The notes under the pieces were generated by a model, which was not told where the DNA came from, ran no database searches, and was given only the letters and a program-made list of their open reading frames with translations. A stretch of DNA of 64,000 bases from Robiginitalea sp. GTDB taxonomy: Bacteria > Bacteroidota > Bacteroidia > Flavobacteriales > Flavobacteriaceae. The position numbers and the translations under genes were made by a program. Positions 11,509 through 27,421 of this stretch are shown here, piece by piece. Each line of letters begins with the position of its first letter. The stretch's first letter is position 1. The stretch is taken from positions 20,512-84,511 of the forward strand of contig JAHECA010000014.1 in assembly GCA_024642005.1 (NCBI GenBank), given 5' to 3'.

Positions 11509-14500
11509 ATGAGACCAACCAAACTGAAAAGGCTGCTGCTGGCCGGAATGCTGCTCTTTGCGGCTTACGGCTTTTCCCAGGAATTCAACTCCTTTGATAT
11601 TCGCTATCAGAATAATCTCAAGGGGGACCTCACTTTTATTGCCAACAATATCCTGAACCGGGACGACGGCACCGGTGACCCCGAAGATCCCTATAACACT
11701 ACAGGTAATTCGTCCCAGTACAACGACTACCTGAACATGCAATACATAGACGTGGATTCGGACCCGTCTACCTTTAACTCCAGTACGGCCACGTTCGGTT
11801 ATGACGACCCTGCGTGCAGCCTGGTTCGCTACGCGGGCCTGTACTGGTCGGCCACCTATCCCAGCCAACAGGCCGGACAACCCCTTGGGACCAACCGCCA
11901 AACCGATTTCAACCGGGTCAAATTCCGGGTGCCGGGCGGGGCCTACGTCGACATCACCGCGGATGAAGTGCTCTACGACGGCTTTACCTCTTCAGACAAT
12001 TCCGTGCGCCAGAATAGCCCGTATGCCTGTTATGCCGATGTTACGGCCCTGGTAACAGCCCTGGCCGATCCGCAGGGGGACTACACCGTGGCAAACATCC
12101 GCGCCGTTACCGGGGCCTTGAATCCGGGAGGCGGGGCTTCCGGCGGATGGACCCTGGTGATCGTCTATGAAAACCCCACCCTTAGCGGGAAACTCATCAC
12201 CACCTTCGACGGTTTCGCCCGGGTTCGGAGCGCGAACCCCACGGTCGACATCAACTACAACGGCTTTAACACGATTCCCGCAGGACCCGTTCGGGCGGAT
12301 ATCGGGGTAGCCGCCCTGGAAGGGGACAACCGGATCACCGGAGACCAACTGCGCATCCGCGCCGCCAGCAATGGTTCATTCACCACCCTGAGCGATGCCG
12401 CCAACCCTTCTGCGAACTTTTTCAACAGCAACATCAGCCAGGACGGCAGCATTGTTACCACACGCACTCCCAACAGCGTGAATACGCTCGGGTACGACAC
12501 CGACATGTTCCTGCTGAACAACCCGTTCAACTCGGTTCTGCCGAACAACGAAACGGCTGCCACCTTCCGGTTTACCTCCACAGGCGACCAATATTACCCG
12601 TTTTTCAACTCCTTTAACGTGGAGATCATCGAGCCCAAAATCGTACTCGAGAAGCGGGTGGAAGATATTGCGGGGAACGACATTACGGGCTTAGGCGTTA
12701 ACCTGGGCCAATTGCTGGACTACGTACTTTCGTTCCAGAATATCGGAAACGACGGCGCAGACAATTACACCATCCGGGATGTATTGCCGATTAACGTAAC
12801 GCTGGACGAAAGCAACCTAACATTGCCCTCCGGGGTAACTTACACTTACGATGCCAGCTCCCGGGAAGTGATCTTTACGATTCCTGATAACCTGGTAGAG
12901 GCCGGCGACCCCTTATACTCCATCCGCATGCGGGTACAGGTGGCCGAAAACTGCTTCGATTTCATCGACGCCTGTACCGACCTGATCCAGAACCTGGCGT
13001 ATTCCACATACCAGGGACAGATCAATACCGCTATGATTACCGACGACCCCAGTGTTTCGGATTTCGACAACTGCGGTTTCATTACACCGGGCGCCACCAA
13101 CTTCCTGTTGGACGACCTGGAGAGCTGCGATTTTTCACGGGAAGTGGAGTTGTGCGGCACCAGCGTGGTCCTGGATGCCGGGGATAATTTCGACTCCTAT
13201 ATCTGGTACCGGGACAACAACGGCGACGGGCTGATCGATGCCGGGGATACGGTAATCAACGACGGGGACCCGGATAACGATCCGAGCACCCAGCGTGTAA
13301 CGCAAACGGGCCAGTATATCGTCGATAAGATCGTGGCTGACCCCTGCAAGGGCTTCCAGGAAATCATCGCCGTGACCCTGCCGGGGGTAACTCAGATAAA
13401 CCCGATCGTAACCCTGATCAACGATACCAGCAACACCGTGGAAGGGGAGGTGGTTACCTGTGCCAATGACGGCAGCCTGCTGCCCAAAATATTCCTCTGT
13501 GGACTCAACGACACGGAGCTCATCCAAATAAACATCCCCGACGCCACCAGCATCGTTTGGGAAAAACTGGACGAGGGCAGCTGTATCGATTCGGGCCCCG
13601 ACTGCGCCAATAAAAACTCGGCCTGTATCTGGAACCAGGTAGGATCCGGGAACGATTTTGTGGCTTCGGATACCGGCGAATACCGGGTGGTCATCAATTA
13701 TCAGAATGGTTGCTTTACCCGCTTTTATTTCAACGTCTTTAAAAACCCGCTGAATCCGCAGTATACTTCGGATGACATCCTGTGTGCCACCCCGGGTAAC
13801 ATCACCGTAACCAACATGCCGGCCGACTACGAGTACCAGTTGCTCGATGCCAATACCGGCGCCGTTATCGTACCTTACAGCGCGGCCAACGGCCCGAGCT
13901 TCGACATTGCCACCAACGGCGCCTATACCGTGGAAATGCGGCAAGCCGGAGTTGTGGACGGCTGTCTGTTCTACCTGGAAAACATCGGCATCCTGGCCCG
14001 TGACTTTACCGTGGACGTTACCACTGTGGAGGCAGATTGCTCCGGCCTCGGTTCCATCAACATCGCGGTGAACAATGCCAACGCCCAATATTATTACGAA
14101 ATCTCCCAGGGGGGCACCGTGGTGGACACCTACGGCCCCAGCAACGACAACCAATACAGCTTCTTTAATGTAAACGGTGGGGTATACGATATCCGGGTAA
14201 CCACCGACGACGGGTGTGTTTATACCGAGCAGGTAACCGTAATTGATAACAACACTCTGGAGCTCACTGCCCGGGTATCCCAACACATCACGTGTAAGGA
14301 GGGTAATATCCTGATGGAATCCAGCGGCGGAAAAACCCCGCACACCTATGCCATCTGGGAATTTATCGACGAAGGCGGGGTAACCCAGATTTCGTATAAT
14401 TCCCCGGCGGAAATCCCGGCTTCGGAATTCCAGACGAGCCAGATTTTTGACATCCTGACGCCCGGACGGTACACCTTTGTGGTGGTAGACCGATTTAACT

Positions 14501-17500
14501 GTTTCGATATTTCCAACTCGGTGGTGATTTACTTTGTTCCTCCGGTGGAATACGATCCCACCACCGTGATTAACGAACAGTGCTTCGGCGATGCCACGGG
14601 GGTAATCCAGTACAATCTGGTAACCGATAACGGCTATCAGATCACCTACTACCTGCTGGATGATAACGGGGTGGAACTCGCCACCAACGGCTCCGGAATC
14701 TTTATCGGCCTGGCGCAGGGCGATTACACCGTACATGTGAACTACCGGAAGGGGAGTGCTTCCTGCGATTACTACGAGGACTACACCATTTCCGGGCCTT
14801 CGGCCGCCCTGGCCGGGGATGCGGTTCTGATACAGCCCTATACGTGCCTGCAGAACGCGACCATCCAGGCCCAAAACGTGTCCGGGGGAACGGCGCCCTA
14901 CCAATACAGCATCAACGGGGTAAGCTTCGGCGCCTCCAATACGTTTACCGGGCTTACTCCGGGAACCTATGCCATTACAATTCGCGACGCCAACGGTTGT
15001 ATTTTCCAAACCGCCCCGGTAACTGTCGACGATATCGATCCGCCGACCGACCTGGACTTTGCCTTCGGCAATGTGAATTGTAACCTGCAAACCGGCGACC
15101 TGTTGGTGACCGCAACTGGCGGTACCCTCCCACTGGTCTTTGATATCATCGCCCCGACGGTGATTAACCCGGACGCTACCAGCGGTAATACGGCCACTTA
15201 CAACAACCTGCCGGCCGGAACCTATACTTTCCGGGTAAGCGATGCCAACGGCTGCGTTTACACCGAAACCTATAATGTTCCCGGCCTGGATCCGATCCAG
15301 GCGAACGCCTCCGTCCTGAATAATGTAACCTGTTTCGGGGATTCCGACGGCAATGCGGAATTCCGCATCGGAAATTTCAGCGGCACGTACAGCTATTCCA
15401 TCGACGGCGGTGCCCTGGTTACCGGCCAAACCGCCGCCGTAATCCCGATTACGGGACTGGCAGCCGGAACCTATTCCATCGCAGTTACCGATGAAGTAAC
15501 CGGCTGTACCGATACGGCCGACGTCACCATTTCCGATCCGCCTTCGGCCCTCGCGCTGGCCTTCAGCGTCGCCCAGCCCACCTGTGTTTCTGACGGCTAT
15601 GTAACTATCAATGCCGGCGGCGGATGGGGTTCGTACCAATACGAACTGGAACAGCCCGACGCCTCTGTCCTGGGGCCCCAAACCGGACCGCAGTTCAACG
15701 GCCTTACCCAAACCGGCACATATATTATTACGGTCCGCGACGGCGGGGGTTGTGTGATTACCGACACCTTTGTAATCAGTGCCCCCTCCCTGCCTGCCGT
15801 AAGCCTGGACCCGGTAACCGACCTGTGTTACGACCCGGCAACCGGGGTAAACCTGACGGCTACCGCCAGCGGCGGCAACGCGCCCTACAGCTACAGCCTG
15901 AACGGCGGGCCGGGCCAGAGCAGCAATGCCTTTAACAACCTGGCGCCCGGCACCTATACCGTGGTCGTAACCGACCTGTATGGCTGTACCGCCACGTCCA
16001 CCGCCGTGGTGATTGCGCCTCAGATGACGGCCGTAGCAGCCGTTACCAAGGAACTCGATTGCTCGGTATCCCCGGATGCCGTTATAGACGTAGTGATAAA
16101 CGGAGGCTATGCGCCTTTTACCTATACCGTAAACGGCGGTGCGTCCACGCCGGTGATCGGGAATAGCTTTTCCCATAGCACCCCTACGGACGGGACCTAT
16201 ACGTTTACAATTACGGATGCCGAAGGATGTATGGCTGTGACCTCCGCGGTTATCGCCCCGATCACGAATCCCGCAGCCACCCATACCGCCACCGATCCTA
16301 CCTGCGACAGTGCGGCCGACGGTACGGTTACCATTACCATCGATCCGAACTTCGGAACTGCCCCCTATCAGGTGGATTTCAATGGCGGCGGCTTCGGCAA
16401 CCCCACCCAATTCAGCAACCTGGCTGCCGGCACCTATGGATATACGGTTCGCGACTCCAAGGGTTGTACCTATACCGGTTCGGTAACGCTTACCGCACCG
16501 GCACCCATTACCGCGGATGCCGTATTGATCCAGGACTACACCTGTCTCCAGGACGGCAGCATCCAGGCCCAGAACGTTACCGGGGGGACCGCTCCCTATA
16601 CCTACAGCATCGACGGGGTTACCTTCCAGGCCTCCGACACCTTTACCGGCCTCCATGACGGCGCCTATTCCGTAACCGTCCAGGACGCTTCGGGCTGTAC
16701 CTTCGTTACGGTTCCCGTGGTGATCGACCCGCTGGATCCGCCCACGGACATCAGCTTTAGCGCCACCCCTCCGAACTGTCCGGCGGAAGTTTCCGACGTT
16801 ACGCTTACCGTAACCGGAGGCGCCGGCGCGATCACCTATGAAATCATTGCTCCTGCCCCTGTTAATAACGGCAACAGCAATGTCTTTACCAGCCTTGCGC
16901 CGGACACTTATACCTTCCGGGTTACCGACGCGGACGGGTGTTTTTACGAGGAGAACTTTACCATACTCCCGGTATCCCCGATTACCGTGGCAGGCAGCCT
17001 GGTAAGTGACGTAAGCTGTGTGGGTGGTGCCGACGGCGCCGTGAATTTTGCCGTTAATGGCTTTACGACTACCTACAGTTATACGGTTAACGGTAGTGCC
17101 GCAATCACCGGCCAGTCCGCTTCGGTCATAAACCTCACCGGCCTTACTGCCGGGGATTATACCGTGGTAGTAACCGATGAGACCACCAACTGTACCGCTA
17201 CGGACACGGTTACCGTGAGCGAACCGGCCAATCCGCTGGCCTTTACCCTGGCGGTTACCCCGATTACCTGCGTGGCCGACGGAACCGTCACCATCAGTGC
17301 AACCGGTGGCTGGGGCGCATATTCCTACGAAGTGGAGCAACCGGACACCACGGTCCTGGGGCCGCAATCCGCCAACGTATTCGCTGGCCTCACGCAGGCA
17401 GGGAGCTATACAGTTACGGTAACCGATGGTAATGGTTGTGCGGTTACGGAAACCTTTGTCCTGAGCGCACCAACCAATCCGGTGGCCAGCATAGACGCCA

Positions 17501-20500
17501 CTTCCGGCCTGTGTTACGACCCGGCTACCGGCGCCACCATTGTGGTGGGCGCTACCGGCGGGCTGGCTCCGTATTATTACAGCATGAACGGCGGGCCCAC
17601 CCAGACTTCCAGTACATTTACCGGGTTGGTCCCCGGCAATTATACTTTTACCGTGCTGGACAGCAACGGTTGCTCTGATACCGTGGCCCAGACCATCGCT
17701 CCCCAGCTCACGACGAACGCCGTCCTGACCAAGGACCTGGATTGTACGGTGTCCCCGGATGCCACCATCGATGTCACCGCAACCGGTGGTTACCCGGCCT
17801 ATACGTATGAGGTGGCCTTTAACGGCGGGGCTTTCGCTCCATACGCCGGAGCTTTCCCGTACACGACTTCCGTTGCCGGCACCTACCAGTTCCGCGTGAT
17901 GGACAGCGAAGGCTGTGTGGCGCTCACCCAGGTAGTTACCGTTAACCCGATCGTCCTGCCGCAAGCTACGGCCACGGGAATCGACCCGACCTGTTTCGGC
18001 GATTCCAACGGCGTGGTGGAAATCGAAGTGGATCCGAATTTCGGCCAGGCCCCTTACCAGGTAGATTTCAACGGCGGCGGTTACGGCAACCAGACGGTCT
18101 TTACCGGCCTACCCGCCGGCACCTACAACTATACGGTTAGGGATGCCAAAGGCTGTACATATGCAGACACCATAACCCTTACCGATCCAGCCCTGTTTGA
18201 CGCCTCCATTACCGTTACCGACGTCAGCTGTGCGGGAACCATCGGCGGAGGGGACATCCCCGGTCGGATCGATATTTCAATTATCAGCGGAGGAACACCC
18301 AACTTTACCTACACGCTGTACGACCAGTCCAATAATATCGTTCCGGTTGCGGGCTCCAACCCTATTGTAAACACCTCCGCCACCAGCGTAAGCTTCGACG
18401 GTCTGGCTTTCGGGGATTACTACGTCCGGATTATCGATGCCAACGGATGCGAATTCTATCAGAATCCGGTCCGGGTTCGGGCCAACCCCTTCCTTGCCCT
18501 GGATTCATCCGCAATCGTGGACTGCCTTACCGGCGGCACGGTTACCGTTTCGGCGGATGGCGGTTCCGGCGACTACAGCTTCAGCATTTTCGGCCCCGGC
18601 ACAGCTCCCGATTCCGAAACTTCCGGTCCGGGTGCCCTGGAAGAGCAGGCGGTATTCAACGGCCTTAACGCCGGGCAAACCTACATTTTCGAAGCGATCG
18701 ACAACTTAACCCTTTGCCGGAGCTATATCGAGGTGTCCATTCCAGCCCTCTCCGGCATCGAAGTAGTGCCTACGCCGGCCGTTACCGACGCCACCTGCTT
18801 CGGCGATACCAACGGTTCCATCGCGTTCCAGTTCCAGAACTTCGACGGTTCGGTTACCGATATCAACTATGAAATCCTCCAGGCCCTTACCAACAACCCG
18901 ATCGGGGTATCCGGTACCGTGAGCGGCCCGGCCGGCGGACCTACCGTCCTGGAAACCGTAACCAATCTGGCGCCTGGGGATTACGTGCTCTATTTTGAAG
19001 AGGCCACCAGCCCATTCTGTTCGAACACCTACGAATTCCGGATCCTGGAGCCCTCACCCATTACCTTTACCCTCCTGGACCAAAATAACGCGAACTGTAA
19101 CGAAGACGCCCAGGTAACCGTACGGGCCACAGGCGGATCCGGCAGCTTTACCTACGCTTTCGTGCAGGACGGGGTGGCTCCGGTACCCGGGGATTTCACC
19201 TCCAACGGATACGCCGAACTGGATCCGGCGGTGAACACCCAGTGGGACGCTTACGCCATGGATTCCAACGGCTGCATGACGCCGCCCCTGGATATTACCA
19301 TTTCAGCCGATCCCGAGCCGGTTATTTCGGCCGTGGTTCCCGACCAGTGCACTGCAACCGAGGGCAACTTCAGCCTGGAAGTGTCCCTGGACACGGCCGG
19401 GGTAGGCTCCTATATGCTGAGTCTGGACGGAGGCGCATACCAGGCGTCCACCCTCACCAATGTGGGCGACACCCAGCTCCTTACCGGCCTGAGCTCTGGT
19501 TCGCATACGGTCTCTATCCTGGACGCCAACGGGTGCAGCCACGCTGTGGTGGTGGTCATCAATCCGCCGATGGGACTCCTGGCGGCAGTTACCGCCCAGC
19601 CCACCTGCGCCCTCAATGACGGATCGGTGGAACTCACCGCCGCCGGAGGCGACGGGACCTTTACCTACGAACTTTTCCTGGGCGCCGTTTCCGTGGCTGG
19701 ACCCCAGGCTTCCAACAGCTTCGGTGGCCTGGCCCCTGGAGTCTATACGGCCGTCGCTTACGACGGCGCGGGTTGCGACGCTTCCACCACCTTTGAACTG
19801 ATCAACCCCACTCCGGTAGCCTTCACGGTATCCGCGGAAGATGTGAGTTGTTCCGGTGGTTCGGACGGCAGTATTGTAGTAATCCTGGATCCGGGGCAGG
19901 ACAACCCGCCCTATTCGTATGAACTCTACGACGGTTCCATGGCCCTGTACGCCGGTCCCCAGGCTTCCAACGTCTTCACCAACCTCCCTGCAGACACCTA
20001 CACCGTAAGGGTTGTATCGGGCCGGGATTGCGAGGCTACAGTTGTACAGCCCATCACTGAGCCCACGCTGGTTTCCGCTGCGGCCGCAGCGACGGATTTT
20101 GCCTGCGCCCCGGATAATTCCGTATCCCAGGCAGTTATCACCGTCACCGCAGGCGGCGGAACGGCCCCTTACCTGTACAGCATCGACGGGGCGAATTTCA
20201 CCGCATCGAACACCTTTGACATTACCGATACCGGCGCCGTACAGAATTTCACGCTTACCGTACGCGATGCCAATGGATGCGAAGCTACGGATGCCGTGAG
20301 CATCAACCCGCTGCCGACCATCGCCGATGCAGCGGTAAGCCAGATCACAGCCATTACCTGTGCCAACGACGAGGTGGCCCGGGTTACCGTTACCGGAGGC
20401 TCAGGCGATTTCGACTTTGACCTGCTGCCCCTGGGCACTGCGCCTACCCAGTCGCCTGGCCCTGGCGTATACACGGCCGATTTCAACCTGACCGCCCCCG

Positions 20501-23500
20501 GGGATTACACCTTCCGGGTAACCGATAATGTGACCGGCTGTTACTTTACCACCCTGCCCTATACGGTTGCCCCTTACGACCTGATCGAAGCCGTGGCCAC
20601 CGCCGTAACGCCCGTGACCTGTTTCGGCGATGCCGACGGGGAACTGCAACTGCAGGTGAACAACTACGCAGGCAATTACACCTACCGGGTCTTTGATGGG
20701 GCCGGCGCTCCCGTGACCGGAGTAGTGGCTACCGATACCTCGGTGAACCCGCGGACCATCGGCAGCCTGCCGGCAGGCAACTTCTACGTGGAAGTGATCG
20801 CCACCGACACCCCCTTCTGCGACGACCTGTCAAATACCGTAACCATCGCCTCCCCGGCGGCTCCTGTGAGCCTGATTGAGGTGGCCAATATCAACGCGAA
20901 CTGTAATACAGGCGCTCAGGTAACCGTAATTGCCAGCGGAGGAACCCCGGGCTATACCTATGCCTTTGTTCCGACCGGCAATATCCCGGTTCCCGGGGAC
21001 TATACCCCCAGTGCCTCTGCCGTGCTGAGCCCGGCCAGCTACCCGGCTGACTATGACGTTTACGCCCAGGACAGCAACGGCTGCAGCACCTTTATTACCG
21101 TCACCGTCGATGAAGATCCGATGCCGACCGTAACAGCGCCGACCTATGCAGTAGACCAGTGTACTTCCGACGGAACCGCCTACACCTTTACCGTAGCCGG
21201 AACCGGCGTGGCTCCGCTTACCTATAGCGTAGGGGCCGGGCTCCAGGCTTCCCCGACGTTTACCGTTAGCGCCCCGGGCGTCTATACGGTAACCGTGCGC
21301 GATGCCAATGGATGTACCGCTACCGACACCATTACCATTCTGCCTCCGCTCACCCTGACGGCCCTGCCGACGGCTCAGCCTTCCTGCCTGCTCAACGACG
21401 GCGAGGTTACAGTAACCGCCCAGGGCGGATCAGGAGCCTATGAGTACGACCTGCTCGACAGCGGCGGGGTAAGCGTCATTGGCGGCGTGCCCCAGGTCTC
21501 CAACGTATTCTCCGGACTGGCTCCGGGCACCTATACCGCCGTGGTTTACGACACCTCCGGTACCGGATGCGACGCCCAGGCCCCGGTAACCCTGGAGTCT
21601 CCGACCCCGGTTTCCTTTACCACTTCCGGACAGGATGTGAGCTGCGCGGGAGCTGCCGACGGATCCATTACGGTTACCCTGAATCCGGGACAGGATAACC
21701 CGCCTTATGCCTATGAGCTTTACGACGGCAGTATGGCCCTTGTGGCCGGGCCGCAGGCCAGTCCGTTTTTTGCCGGATTGTCCGCGGACACCTATACCGT
21801 ACGGGTCATTTCCGGCCGCAACTGCGAGGCTTCGCTGATTCAACCCATTGCGGAACCATCTTCCGTAACCGTGTCCGCCACGGCTACCGACTTCAGTTGC
21901 ACCGTTGGGAATGCCCCCTCCGAATCCGTAATTACCGTTACGGCAGGCGGCGGTACCGCCCCGTACCTGTATAGCATCAACGGAGTCAATTTCGTAACCG
22001 GCAACACGTTCAACGTTGCCGATACCGGGGTAACCCAGACGATTGATGTCTATGTCAGGGACGCCAACGGGTGTACGGATACCGCAACCGTGGTTATCGA
22101 TCCGTTGAATACCTTCACAGCAGCCGTTTCCCAGGTAACAGCCATTACCTGCGTGAATCCGGAGTCCGTCCTGATCACGGTAACGGATAACGGAGACGCA
22201 ACCAACGTCTATACCTTCGAACTGCTGCCGTTGGGCAACCCCAACGGAACACTTACCGGCAACCCGGCGTACAACCAGGCTGCGTTTGATCTGAGCGCAC
22301 CGGATACGTACGTGTTCCGGATTACGGACACCGTCACCGGTTGTTACGTGGATACCTCGTATACCATTGCCCCGTACGATATCATGGGGGTTGACGCTAC
22401 GGCCACTACGCCGGTTACCTGCTTCGGGGATACCGACGGCTCAATCTCCATTACAATCACCGATTTCTCAGGGGCTTACGATTACGAAGTGTTCGAAGCC
22501 GGAGGGGCATCTGCCGGGATCACCGGAAGTGGTTCCACGGCCGTGAACCCGCTTGTTATCAGCGGCCTGAGCGGCGGAAACTATTTCGTCCGGATCACGC
22601 AGACGGCCACGCCTTTCTGCAACGCGGACTCCAACGTCATTACCATCGCATCCCCACCCAGCCCGCTTGCGGCTGTGGTCCAGGAGGTGGCGCCGGTGAC
22701 CTGCTCAGACGACCTGGGTGAAATCCTGGTGGACCCGGATGGCGGCTATCCGCCTTATACCATCGTTCTCACGAACACCGGCACGTCGCAGGTTTATTCG
22801 GTCAGCGGGGTTAACGCCCATATCTTTACCGGGCTTTCCTCGGGCTCCTATACCGTTGCCGTGACCGATGCGGGGGGATGCATCTACAACGACGCCATCG
22901 ACCTGCTGCCGGCCGTTCCGGTGACGGCAGATATTACGGTTGCCCCAGCGGCTCTCGCCTGCTACGGCGACACGAACGGGGTAGTCACAGCAGTCAATGT
23001 GGCTGGAGGTTCGGGGACGTACCAATACCAGCTGAACTATTACGATGCCACCGGAACGGTGATCGAATTCACTTCCGGATTCCAGACCAACCCAATGTTT
23101 ACGGGGCTCGGGGCCGGCATCTACACCATTACCGTTTCCGATTCCTGGGGTTGTGAGGTGGAAACCGTACCGGTTACCATTATCGAACCGACGGAAATCA
23201 TGAGCAACTTGGTACAGACCAGCATGCTCACCTGTTCCAACGACGCCGAAATAGTACTTACGGCTACCGGCGGAACCGGGCCATACGAATACAGTACTGA
23301 CGGCATCAACTACAGCCCGATGTCGGGCGGCAACACTCATACGTTTGCCGTTACGGCCGGCGTATATCAGTACTACGTGCGCGATGCCTTTGGCTGCGAG
23401 GCCGACATTTCAAACCAGGTAACCATTGAGCCTGTTGCGCCGCTCATGCTCGATATCGACACCAGCGCCGCAATGATCAACTGTACGGGCGAGATGACCG

Positions 23501-24906
23501 CCGCCTTAATGGCCACCGCTACAGGAGGGCTGGGCAACTACCAGTACGAGCTCTATTCAGATGCCGGGTTGACCAACCTCCTGACCGGGCCCCAGGCTTC
23601 AGGCGATTTCAGCGGCCTGGGCGTGGGCAGCTACTGGATCCGCGTAATCAGCCAGGATTGTGAAGCAGTTTCAAACGAGGTAATTATAACCGAACCCGTG
23701 CCACTGCAGATAGACCGGGAGGAATTCACTGATGTGACCTGCGCCGGAGAGGGAGATGGAACAATTACCGTGGAGGTGTCGGGAGGCACCGGAAACATCC
23801 TGTACGCCATCAGTCCGAACCTGAACCAGTTCGACGACGTGAATACCTTCACCGACCTCGATCCGGGCGTATACGATGTGATTGCCCAGGATGAGAACGG
23901 CTGCTTCATCACCTTCCAGTTCACCATTGCAGAGCCCCAGGTGCTCGACATTTCGGGCACTGCCACTCCGGAAGTGTGCGCCGGAAGCGAAGACGGGACA
24001 ATCGACATTGTGATCTCGGGAGGCACGGCGCCTTACCTGACCGCCTTCAATTCGAACCTGGACGCCGATTTCGGTCCGGCCCAGACCGCGTTTACCAACC
24101 TGGCAGCCGGCACCTATGTTATCTTTGTTCGAGATGCCATGGGCTGTGAAAACAACGTGGTGGTAACCGTAGACCCGGGTGTAAACCTCAATGCAATTGT
24201 TACCCCGGTCTACGAATGTACCGGCAACATTCCTGACAATTATCTGGAGGTGGTATTGGAAGATGCCTCTGTGGCCAGTGAAGTCATGTATGCCCTGGAT
24301 TCTACCGATCCTGCAGCTATGCAGCTCGATGCGAATTTCAGCAGCCTGTCACCGGGCCCGCACTTCCTGGCTATTTCGCATGCCAACGGCTGTGTCCAGA
24401 CCATCGATTTCGAGATTGCCAGCTTCGAGCCTTTAACCCTGATGCTGGAGCAGCGCAACATCAACGAGATAACGGCCATTGCCGAAGGAGGGCAGCCTGA
24501 ATACCAATTCTGGTTCAACGACGACGACAACGGCGCCGACAACACCTACTACATTACCGAATCGGGCGTGTATACCGTGCGTGTTATGGACCAGAACGGG
24601 TGCGTGGTTGAAGCCCAAATAGAAATGGAGTTCATCGACATCGAAATACCGAATTATTTTACCCCTGACGGAGATGGCATGAACGACTTCTGGATCCCTG
24701 ACAACCTTGAAGGGTTCCCTGAAATACTAATAAAAATTTATGATCGTTATGGTAGAGTAGTGGCCGAGTTATCCTACGGTGTACAAGGATGGGACGGCAC
24801 CTACAACAGCAAGGAGCTGCCTACGGGAGATTACTGGTACGTAATCAAACTGAATGGAGAGCGCGACGACCGCGAATTCGTAGGACACTTTACCCTTTAC
24901 CGCTAA
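11509..24906 (+). CDS. giant (4465 aa) SprB-repeat cell-surface adhesin, T9SS type-B cargo
   Basis: Signal peptide; N-terminal domain ([14 protein letters not shown]..); DUF11-like segment ([50 protein letters not shown]). Many SprB-like repeats (TCFGDxxGxIxxxxxGGxxPYxYSxxG...FxGLxxGTYTVxVxDxxGC). C-terminal [23 protein letters not shown]...[11 protein letters not shown]...[23 protein letters not shown]. Confidence 0.95.
13213..13248 (+). other. EF-hand-like / type-3-repeat-like Ca-binding motif ([12 protein letters not shown]) in the giant adhesin
   Basis: gac aac aac ggc gac ggg ctg atc gat gcc ggg gat = [12 protein letters not shown], a DxNxDGxxDxxD pattern, followed by DGDPDNDP. Confidence 0.6.
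14818..16515 (+). repeat. higher-order repeat 1, copy A (~566 aa, several SprB-like units)
   Basis: Starts at [12 protein letters not shown]. Landmarks in the same order as copy [72 protein letters not shown]. Confidence 0.85.
16516..18198 (+). repeat. higher-order repeat 1, copy B (~561 aa)
   Basis: Starts at [12 protein letters not shown]. Landmarks [71 protein letters not shown]. Confidence 0.85.
18796..20619 (+). repeat. higher-order repeat 2, copy 1 (608 aa)
   Basis: From CFGDTNGSI to the next CFGD anchor. Landmarks [58 protein letters not shown]. Confidence 0.85.
20620..22419 (+). repeat. higher-order repeat 2, copy 2 (600 aa)
   Basis: From CFGDADGEL to CFGDTDGSI. Landmarks [59 protein letters not shown]. 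Confidence 0.85.
22420..22700 (+). repeat. higher-order repeat 2, partial third copy
   Basis: [25 protein letters not shown]...[21 protein letters not shown] aligns with the first unit of copy 2 ([25 protein letters not shown]...[21 protein letters not shown]), then diverges. Confidence 0.7.
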
Positions 24907-24907
24907 T

Positions 24908-25888
24908 ATGCTTAACCTGAACGATATGCGCTGGAGATTGACATTTGTGCTCGTGATGCTGGGACTGTTTGGCTCAAGGGCGCAGGAATTGAACTCCCCT
25001 CAACTATCCCAGTACCTGGCCGATAACCCCTTCGTGCTGGCGCCCACCTATGCCGGTATCGGAGACCATGTCAAGATAAGGCTTAACGGCCTCGGGCAGT
25101 GGGTTGGGATCAAAGACGCCCCCATGACCGAGTCCCTGGCTGCAGACGCCAGGATCGGGAATAAATCGGGGCTGGGGATCTTTCTCTACAATGACCGCAA
25201 CGGGTATACCCGTCAGCAGGGGGCGCGCCTTTCCTTTGCACACCACCTGACTTTAGACCGTTACCAGGATAAGTTTCTCTCGTTCGGTATCTCGTATAAC
25301 TTCAACCAGTTCCGGATAGATATAGAGAAGTTCAGGGATGCTAACGGCCTGCCCGTTAACGACCCCAGTGTAACAGACGACAGGTCTACCAGCAACCACA
25401 ACTTCGACGTGGGGATCATGTACCGGGTCAACAAATTCTATGCGAGCCTTAACGCCTCGAACCTGCTCGATAAAGACCTGACAAGCTTTAACCCGATCTT
25501 TGAGCCGAACCACCTGCGCAACTATTACCTCTATACCGGTTTTCGTTACTCCAAGAACAAGAACAGCAAGCTGGAGTTGGAACCCTCCTTGCTTTATAAG
25601 CTCTTTGAAAGCGATGGCCGGTCTGAGACCGACCTAAACATGAAGGTTCGGGTATACGATTTTGAGGACTATTACTACGGCGGCATCAACTACCGCTTCC
25701 TGAACGACCAGATCGGAAAGCCGCTGTACATTGCTCCCTTTGTCGGTTTCAAAAAAAGCAACTTCTACTTTGGGTATTCCGTACAGATTATCCTGAATGA
25801 AATTCTGGCCTACAGTTACGGAACCCATGTGATTACCATTGGCATGGACCTGTTCCAGGGGCTGAGCAACTGCCGGTGCACCTATTGA
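24908..25888 (+). CDS. PorP/SprF-family T9SS membrane protein (short form)
   Basis: SRAQELNSPQLSQYLADNPFVLAPTYAGIGDHVKIRLNGLGQWVGIKDAPMTESLAADARIGNKSGLGIFLYNDRNGYTRQQGARLSFAHHL is typical PorP/SprF. Alternative start MRWRLTF at 24926. Confidence 0.92.
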   Translation: MLNLNDMRWRLTFVLVMLGLFGSRAQELNSPQLSQYLADNPFVLAPTYAGIGDHVKIRLNGLGQWVGIKDAPMTESLAADARIGNKSGLGIFLYNDRNGYTRQQGARLSFAHHLTLDRYQDKFLSFGISYNFNQFRIDIEKFRDANGLPVNDPSVTDDRSTSNHNFDVGIMYRVNKFYASLNASNLLDKDLTSFNPIFEPNHLRNYYLYTGFRYSKNKNSKLELEPSLLYKLFESDGRSETDLNMKVRVYDFEDYYYGGINYRFLNDQIGKPLYIAPFVGFKKSNFYFGYSVQIILNEILAYSYGTHVITIGMDLFQGLSNCRCTY

Positions 25889-25942: not shown

Positions 25943-26305
25943 ATGCTGGGGAAGATACGCCTGAAGAATGTGCGCCTGTACGGCTTTCACGGGTGCCTGA
26001 AGGAAGAGGAAATGATCGGGTCTGACTACCGGGTAGACCTGGAAGTAACCGCCGACCTGGAAAGGGCGGCGCAGACAGATCATCTTTCTGAAACTGTAGA
26101 TTACGTGCACCTTCAGACCATTATCCGGGAAGAGATGGGGATCCGCACCAAGCTTATCGAAACGGTTGCTTCCCGAATCCTTGACCGCATTCTGGAAGAG
26201 CTGCCACAAGTTCAGTCGGCCGGGGTGGAGGTGTCAAAAATCAACCCGCCAATTGGGGGAGATGTGGAGCAGGTAACCGTATCGCTGTTGAAAAACCGGC
26301 TATAG
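25943..26305 (+). CDS. folB: dihydroneopterin aldolase
   Basis: IRLKNVRLYGFHGCLKEEEMIGSDYRVDLEV...TVDYVHLQTIIREEM...KINPPIGGDVEQVTV. TAGCTTTG box at 25921-25928. Confidence 0.93.
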   Translation: MLGKIRLKNVRLYGFHGCLKEEEMIGSDYRVDLEVTADLERAAQTDHLSETVDYVHLQTIIREEMGIRTKLIETVASRILDRILEELPQVQSAGVEVSKINPPIGGDVEQVTVSLLKNRL

Positions 26306-26353: not shown

Positions 26354-26424
26354 GGCATCGTGGCCGAGTGGCTAGGCGCAGCTCTGCAAAAGCTTGTACA
26401 GCGGTTCGAATCCGCTCGATGCCT
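26354..26424 (+). tRNA. tRNA-Cys (GCA), canonical anticodon loop CTGCAAA
   Basis: 71 nt: acceptor GGCATCG/CGATGCC, T arm AGCGG-TTCGAAT-CCGCT, anticodon loop CTGCAAA (U33 present). TAACTTTG at 26332-26339 upstream. Confidence 0.95.
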
Positions 26425-26457: not shown

Positions 26458-26606
26458 ATGCCCGCTCCTCCCGGCAGCCTGCCTGTGATATCCGTCCAAC
26501 TGCACTTGGAGGACGGGTGGGGGCGGTTATTACAAGACGGCCTTGCCACTAGGCGATACTGTTTAACCGTTGGCCGTATTTGATGTTAAATCGAGGGCCC
26601 GCACTT

Positions 26607-26635
26607 TTGTGCTTCTAAAAAATCCGGTAATTTTG
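26607..26635 (+). promoter_or_regulatory. promoter of the second tRNA-Cys-like gene (TTG-N18-TAATTTTG)
   Basis: TTG 26607-26609, 18 nt, TAATTTTG 26628-26635; tRNA 5' end at 26651. Confidence 0.7.
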
Positions 26636-26650
26636 ACCTGCTTACCTATT

Positions 26651-26721
26651 GGCATTGTGGCTGAGTGGCTAGGCAAGGCCCCGCAAGGGCCTTTACAGTA
26701 GTTCGAATCTACTCGATGCCT
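26651..26721 (+). tRNA. divergent tRNA-Cys(GCA)-like gene with C33 and potential C32:G38 pair
   Basis: 71 nt, co-linear with tRNA-Cys at 26354: acceptor GGCATTG/CGATGCC, D arm GCTGAGTGGCTAGGC, anticodon stem AGGCC/GGCCT, loop CCGCAAG, T arm AGTAG-TTCGAAT-CTACT. Confidence 0.8.
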
Positions 26722-26727
26722 CTGAAG

Positions 26728-26757
26728 AAACCCCGTAATTGAGCGGGGTTTTTTATT
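26728..26757 (+). terminator. Rho-independent terminator after the second tRNA-Cys-like gene
   Basis: AAACCCCG-taattgag-CGGGGTTTTTT; overlaps the 3' end of the convergent LysE-type gene. Confidence 0.85.
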
Positions 26758-27421
26758 CCCGCATCATTTCTATACCCTGTTCTATATTGAGTTTGTCTTT
26801 GGGAAGGAAGCCTTTTACGATCAGGACGATGCCGCAGATCACCAAAATGATGCCCAGGGCTTTCTTGACCCAGAAGATGCGTTCGCGGGTGAGTTTGCTT
26901 CTCAGCTGCTTGGCCAGGACTATTTTAACGATATCGGTAAGCAGGTAGGCCCCGAGCATGGAGCCGAAGAAGGTAATCATCCGATTCGGCTGGTTGTCGA
27001 GGCTGGGGCCCACGATAATGATTACCCCCAGCCAGAAGACCAGCACCCCAATGTTGATAAAGTTCAACAGAAAGCCCTTGACGAACAGGCCCAGATAATC
27101 GCTCCCCCTGGCTTCTATCCTTGGGCTTTTAGCCTTGAAATCGGAGCGGAAGACAATGGTCAGCCCATAGACCAGCAGAATAGCGCCCCCAAATACATAA
27201 AGCCCAGGCTGGTTGCTCAGGTTCTCGAGCAACTGGAAGCTACTGAAATAGGCGATGGTCAAAAAGAGGATATCGGCCAGTATGACCCCCATATCGAGGG
27301 CCAGCGCTGCACGGAATCCCCGGGTTGCACTGGTTTCCAGCAAGACGAAGAAAACCGGCCCAATCATGAAGCTGAGCAGGAATCCCAGCGGAATGGCGCC
27401 GTGTATGTCGTCCCAAACCAT
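26753..27421 (-). CDS. LysE-family translocator
   Basis: IPLGFLLSFMIGPVFFVLLETSATRGFRAALALDMGVILADILFL is the LysE/RhtB N-terminal pattern; about six TM helices. Confidence 0.87.
   Translation of the reverse strand: MVWDDIHGAIPLGFLLSFMIGPVFFVLLETSATRGFRAALALDMGVILADILFLTIAYFSSFQLLENLSNQPGLYVFGGAILLVYGLTIVFRSDFKAKSPRIEARGSDYLGLFVKGFLLNFINIGVLVFWLGVIIIVGPSLDNQPNRMITFFGSMLGAYLLTDIVKIVLAKQLRSKLTRERIFWVKKALGIILVICGIVLIVKGFLPKDKLNIEQGIEMMRE

Follow-up and report, generated by a model that had tools for sequence, protein, structure and literature searches.

Why would a marine bacterium carry, next to a normal tRNA-Cys gene, a second one that lacks U33? This base is close to universal in elongating tRNAs, in which it makes the U-turn. 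The question arises from two tandem genes, Cys1 and Cys2, in the 64,000-nt stretch of Robiginitalea DNA that we analysed (the window). The features concerned are as follows.

25943-26305, plus strand: folB-like gene (ORF, named by reading of the sequence), the upstream synteny marker; same neighbour in congeners and Maribacter.
26354-26424, plus strand: Cys1, a canonical tRNA-Cys(GCA) with loop CUGCAAA and U33 (ARAGORN; RF00005, 57.5 bits; 98.6% identical to Maribacter Cys1).
26628-26635, plus strand: promoter-like -7 box TAATTTTG of Cys2 (sequence and box search), with TTTG at 26606-26609, 18 nt upstream.
26651-26721, plus strand: Cys2, a divergent 71-nt tRNA-Cys(GCA) with U73, GCA and C33 (ARAGORN; RF00005, 47.3 bits; 15 substitutions from Cys1; syntenic orthologues in Maribacter; tree).
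26681-26687, plus strand: Cys2 anticodon loop CCGCAAG (C32 at 26681, C33 at 26682, GCA at 26683-26685, then A37, and G38 at 26687; alignment).
26729-26754, plus strand: Cys2 terminator, a hairpin (AACCCCG / CGGGGTT) with a T-run (read from the sequence; an overlapping terminator-like site in a consensus scan).
26753-27421, minus strand: LysE-like transporter gene (ORF, named by reading of the sequence), the downstream synteny marker; same neighbour in congeners and Maribacter.

ARAGORN calls tRNA-Cys(gca) in tandem at 26354 and 26651, and both genes match the tRNA covariance model RF00005 over their full length, at 57.5 bits (Cys1) and 47.3 bits (Cys2) against a gathering score of 29. Cys2 has the lowest score among the 34 tRNAs of the genome, yet it lies well above the cut-off, and its alignment to the model contains no pair marked as non-standard. 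The gene aligns to Cys1 without gaps and with 15 substitutions, as the initial annotation had it; 13 of these are transitions. The helix-keeping paired changes that it described are all real: from Cys1 to Cys2, 31:39 goes from U-A to C-G, 28:42 from A-U to G-C, 51:63 from C-G to U-A and 52:62 from G-C to A-U, and the C.U mismatch at 27:43 of Cys1 becomes an A-U pair. Eleven of the substitutions fall in stems, and every Cys2 helix is kept. When 11 stem substitutions were placed at random, mismatches as few as these arose in about 0.0004 of 200,000 simulations (P ~4e-4). Because so few mismatches appear in only about 0.04% of random trials, Cys2 is not the outcome of random decay, and it has neither the broken helices nor the random change of a tRNA pseudogene.

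The alignment and the predicted fold also bear out the loop CCGCAAG with C33 and a possible C32:G38 pair, although the missing T had been placed at 26685-26686, where the last anticodon base and base 37 lie; C33 is at 26682. The isolated anticodon arm is predicted to form a 7-bp helix that includes 26:44 and 32:38 and closes a CGCAA loop (-11.1 kcal/mol), a value from an energy model that says nothing of the loop on the ribosome. Cys2 is thus like canonical bacterial tRNA-Cys(GCA) (RF00005) in its cloverleaf, GCA, A37, U73, neighbourhood and origin, and differs from it by C33, the possible C32:G38 pair, weaker T-stem pairs (51:63 and 52:62) and a lower score.

The initial annotation allowed that C33 might be private to this strain and that Cys2 might be an early-stage pseudogene. 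C33 is not private: of 12 Maribacter genomes, six have a syntenic orthologue of Cys2 (gene order folB-Cys1-Cys2-lysE), and in five of these it has C33 (G429, G435, G443, G449 and G733, the last recovered without any anticodon requirement). M. polysiphoniae and M. luteus are among the species with Cys2. The sixth orthologue, in G737, has U33, so C33 is not strictly conserved. Four C33 genes from a species-wide scan (described below) are from Maribacter and adjoin the same lysE-like gene, and in three of them the locus reaches folB. A private mutation or sequencing error is ruled out, as C33 recurs in independent genomes. In every genome that carries Cys2, the adjacent Cys1 is normal and has U33. 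Nine congeners with the same neighbours were searched: the tRNA-Cys genes read in them all have U33, and no C33 copy or Cys2 was found; in one of them (G001) the tRNA-Cys matches lie on two contig ends and one match is incomplete.

In a tree built from 64 columns, with the seven loop columns excluded and one inserted T deleted from G733, all Cys2 genes, including that of the window, form a cluster distinct from every Cys1 gene (ultrafast bootstrap 98%). The window's Cys2 is 90% identical to the Cys2 of G435 and 79% identical to its own Cys1; for Cys1, identity between the two genera is 98.6%. Derived states shared by the Cys2 genes are U6, C31:G39 and U51:A63. A family-wide search for the U6 acceptor start, without anticodon requirement (399 genomes, 237 genera), found Cys2 only in the window species and one Maribacter; the remaining five matches have ordinary U33 loops. 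Taken together, Cys2 is a conserved second tRNA-Cys with C33 and a maintained fold. The gene recurs in a related genus at the same site and with the same unusual base, and for this reason it resembles a molecule that is maintained rather than a sequencing slip or fresh wreckage; the kept pairing and the loop-independent clade agree with the earlier view of a structurally maintained paralogue, and the orthology across genera disfavours an early-stage pseudogene. Its presence in two genera may reflect one duplication with many losses, or transfer. A phage or plasmid origin was rejected, as the phage and plasmid collections searched contained no record similar to Cys2.

Cys2 had further been credited with its own promoter and terminator, and the sequence agrees, with the box TAATTTTG, the TTTG 18 nt upstream of it and the hairpin with its T-run. 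Bacteroidota promoters follow the consensus TTG-N17-23-TAnnTTTG. An exact TAnnTTTG box precedes Cys2 in G429 and G733 but not in the other four Maribacter genomes; promoter-like boxes are found in 3 of 7 genomes, the window included. A T-run lies 3' of Cys2 in Maribacter too. A sigma-70 promoter scan gave no match, as expected for Bacteroidota promoters. From the box at 26628-26635, the exact boxes in G429 and G733 and the downstream hairpin with its T-run, we infer that Cys2 is expressed. Separately, the minus strand between Cys1 and Cys2 (26525-26600) contains a D-arm-like stretch, CGCCTAGTGGCAAGGC (~26540-26560), that resembles a tRNA remnant; a degenerate tRNA there was rejected, because an Rfam search with E values up to 5 gave nothing.

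All seven Cys2 genes retain U73, GCA and A37, and U73 and GCA are the major Cys identity determinants (PMC9976931); the window's Cys2 and its six Maribacter orthologues are accordingly predicted to be chargeable by CysRS. Their loops are CCGCAAG, CCGCAAA (G443 and G449), UCGCAAA and, in G737, the ordinary UUGCAAA. The Cys2 genes of G429 (L114) and G737 (L128) match at every position outside the loop, within which the changes are C32>U, C33>U and G38>A, and the sole difference between those of G435 and G443 is at position 38. The chance that such changes all fall within 7 of 71 positions is 6e-4 for three of three and 9e-5 for four of four. Judged from the sequences, the apparent synthetase determinants (U73 and GCA) are kept while the presumed ribosomal features (U33 and an open 32/38) drift, a pattern consistent with a gene that its fold and CysRS constrain, but that has been freed from, or diversified against, the reader of 32, 33 and 38.

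To place Cys2 among other such genes, we turn to the species-wide scan (85,462 genomes, one per species), which returned 25 other C33 tRNA-Cys genes, nearly all from Bacteroidota; its pattern demands C33 and GCAA and suits Bacteroidota D-arms, so that the bias towards this phylum and the intact anticodon come in part from the search itself. By the same pattern, at least 17 of these 25 genomes also have a U33 tRNA-Cys, and for the other eight the pattern cannot tell whether one is present. In a sample of 298 Bacteroidota genomes, all matches listed have U33 except the window's own. Among 26 distinct C33 sequences, 19 have a standard 32:38 pair, where shuffling gives 13.4 on average (P 0.002), and 17 have C-G, A-U, G-C or U-G at 32:38 as against 0 of 93 distinct U33 sequences; the rows within these sets are related, and the 32:38 probabilities overstate the evidence. 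U32-A38 is frequent among U33 genes as well and is therefore uninformative. On viral contigs, the matches listed comprise at least 118 tRNA-Cys with U33, two with C33 and none with a purine at 33. The C33 set is mixed, because nine of the 26 bacterial genes (the window's counted) lack U73 and are probably not Cys-chargeable. These nine tRNA-Cys-like genes (L067, L068, L076, L080, L084, L085, L086, L087 and L088) come from Chitinophagaceae and from relatives of Rufibacter and Sabulibacter, and have G, A or C in place of U73; most have intact stems, and they should not be good CysRS substrates. The literature searched contained nothing on tRNA-Cys without U33 in Bacteroidetes. It is conceivable, if rather unlikely, that Bacteroidota repeatedly evolve a second tRNA-Cys without U33, its loop closed by 32:38 and many members keeping the CysRS determinants, as a recurrent off-ribosome (or nuclease-proof) class, one branch of which stands beside a rare pdxY-like gene in three unrelated genera.

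For Cys2 itself, our leading reading, to which we assign a probability of about 0.4, is an accessory tRNA-Cys that is chargeable but poorly decoding. Cys2 would have arisen by duplication of Cys1 and been retained patchily in Maribacter and in this Robiginitalea-like species; its own promoter would drive its transcription, and the one CysRS of the cell would charge it. Lacking U33, and in some species having a 32:38 pair that closes the loop to CGCAA, it would decode poorly and therefore take little part in elongation, serving instead as a reserve of Cys-tRNA or in regulation and leaving decoding to Cys1. This reading draws on the orthologues in half of the Maribacter genomes (five with C33), the 98% clade, the improbably well-kept pairing, and the constancy of U73, GCA and A37 against the variation at 32, 33 and 38. 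It draws also on the special 32:38 pairs that accompany C33 (17/26 versus 0/93), the U33 gene in at least 17 of the 25 other C33 genomes and the one CysRS per Cys2 genome. Counting against it, a decoding role may persist in G737 because of its U33 and UUGCAAA loop; Cys2 is dispensable, because it is missing from half of the Maribacter genomes and was not found in nine congeners; and ribosomes may partly tolerate C33, as in animal initiator tRNAs and suppressor tests.

The accessory tRNA is closely followed by a somewhat less probable reading, a redundant minor isoacceptor that is charged and still decodes UGU and UGC, though less well as C33 is only partly tolerated, and whose loop and T-stem drift under weak selection because it is redundant with Cys1. 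The fully ordinary loop of G737, the departure of G443 and G449 from a normal loop by C33 alone, the patchy presence of Cys2 and the occurrence of the pyrimidine C, with no purines, at 33 in the viral matches listed would all follow; however, weak selection on the whole gene would spread changes, whereas the closest Cys2 pairs differ in the loop only, and C-G at 32:38 never occurs with U33 among the 93 distinct sequences compared. The clustering of changes at 32, 33 and 38 beside an unchanged anticodon would also suit a nuclease-resistant isoacceptor or decoy, whose altered loop would escape or soak up a nuclease directed at the anticodon of normal tRNA-Cys. A precedent is the proposal that mutations in the anticodon loop let phage tRNAs evade nucleases (PMC10264068); these tRNAs are likewise loop-altered with the anticodon unchanged, and one phage contig (L138, below) has tandem tRNA-Cys genes, the second with C33. 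Cys2 by contrast is chromosomal and syntenic, without a similar record in the phage and plasmid collections searched, and its nuclease is hypothetical; we hold this reading to be improbable. Slightly more doubtful still is a slowly decaying Cys1 pseudogene that keeps its fold by chance: the lowest score in the genome and the patchy loss across Maribacter point that way, and a second low-scoring tRNA-Cys of P. fluorescens that is missing from the mature pool (PMC9897764) is a caution, but orthology across two genera at 83-90% identity, the paired stem changes, the promoter-like boxes in 3 of 7 genomes and the downstream T-run speak against it.

Charging in the absence of decoding would be explained if Cys2 were set aside to supply a PEARL-type ligase with its aminoacyl group, or were served by a second CysRS of its own. 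The donor idea came from the initial annotation and fares worst, as none of the seven Cys2 genomes has PF14028 (Lant_dehydr_C, the LanB-C/PEARL domain), and Cys2 was seen in neither of the only two genomes that do have it. Each of the seven has one CysRS match and lacks a second (PF01406). We therefore rejected both candidates as very improbable; with the PEARL ligase and the second CysRS contradicted, another Cys-tRNA-using enzyme family would be needed. The staphylococcal tRNA-Gly isoacceptors for peptidoglycan (cited in PMC3399842) are paralogous, charged, largely kept off the ribosome and feed Fem ligases; Cys2 has the paralogy in common with them, and would share the charging and the distance from the ribosome on our leading reading, but is not known to feed such a ligase. 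Another additional tRNA-Cys beside a normal one is selC*, in which the acceptor branch is 8/4 and which in some cases is accompanied by a CysRS* (Mukai et al. 2017, reviewed in PMC7609411); unlike it, Cys2 is 7/5 (acceptor stem 7 bp, T-stem 5 bp), with no second CysRS. The pseudo-tRNA tRNA-Other of Bacillus cereus is, like Cys2, an extra, non-standard and dispensable tRNA, and is thought to act outside translation (PMC3399842), a role that for Cys2 is our proposal. It flanks an island, has a Trp anticodon and is poorly charged (PMC3399842), whereas Cys2 keeps the full Cys identity elements and adjoins its parent gene. As a paralogue without U33 that is orthologous across two genera beside a normal copy, Cys2 is a case in which nature lets one test whether bacteria keep some tRNAs solely to be charged, and raises the testable question of whether a C33, 32:38-paired tRNA-Cys is charged, decoding or resistant to anticodon nucleases.

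Several observations lie beside this argument. A C33 tRNA-Cys stands 15-50 nt from a pyridoxal-kinase-like (pdxY) gene in Chitinophaga terrae (L077, 4303-4375), Myroides sp. WP-1 (L078, 5003-5074) and Dysgonomonas mossii (L079, 5222-5293). Searches of 79 genomes of the order and of 194 of the class each found the pdxY-like gene in one genome only, the query genome itself, and the literature searched contained nothing linking tRNA-Cys with pyridoxal kinase. The Myroides and Dysgonomonas tRNAs have in common their loop (ACGCAAT) and their variable region (TAGAT), which suggests a unit that moves horizontally. The 247-kb viral contig L138 carries, at 277-1282, a tRNA that ARAGORN calls tRNA-Pyl (anticodon CTA) together with a tandem pair of tRNA-Cys genes, of which the second has C33. 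Elsewhere in the window, 11509-25888 encodes a 4465-aa repeat-rich secreted protein whose end, by reading of the sequence, resembles a T9SS type B sorting domain; its gene is followed by one that reads as PorP/SprF-like.
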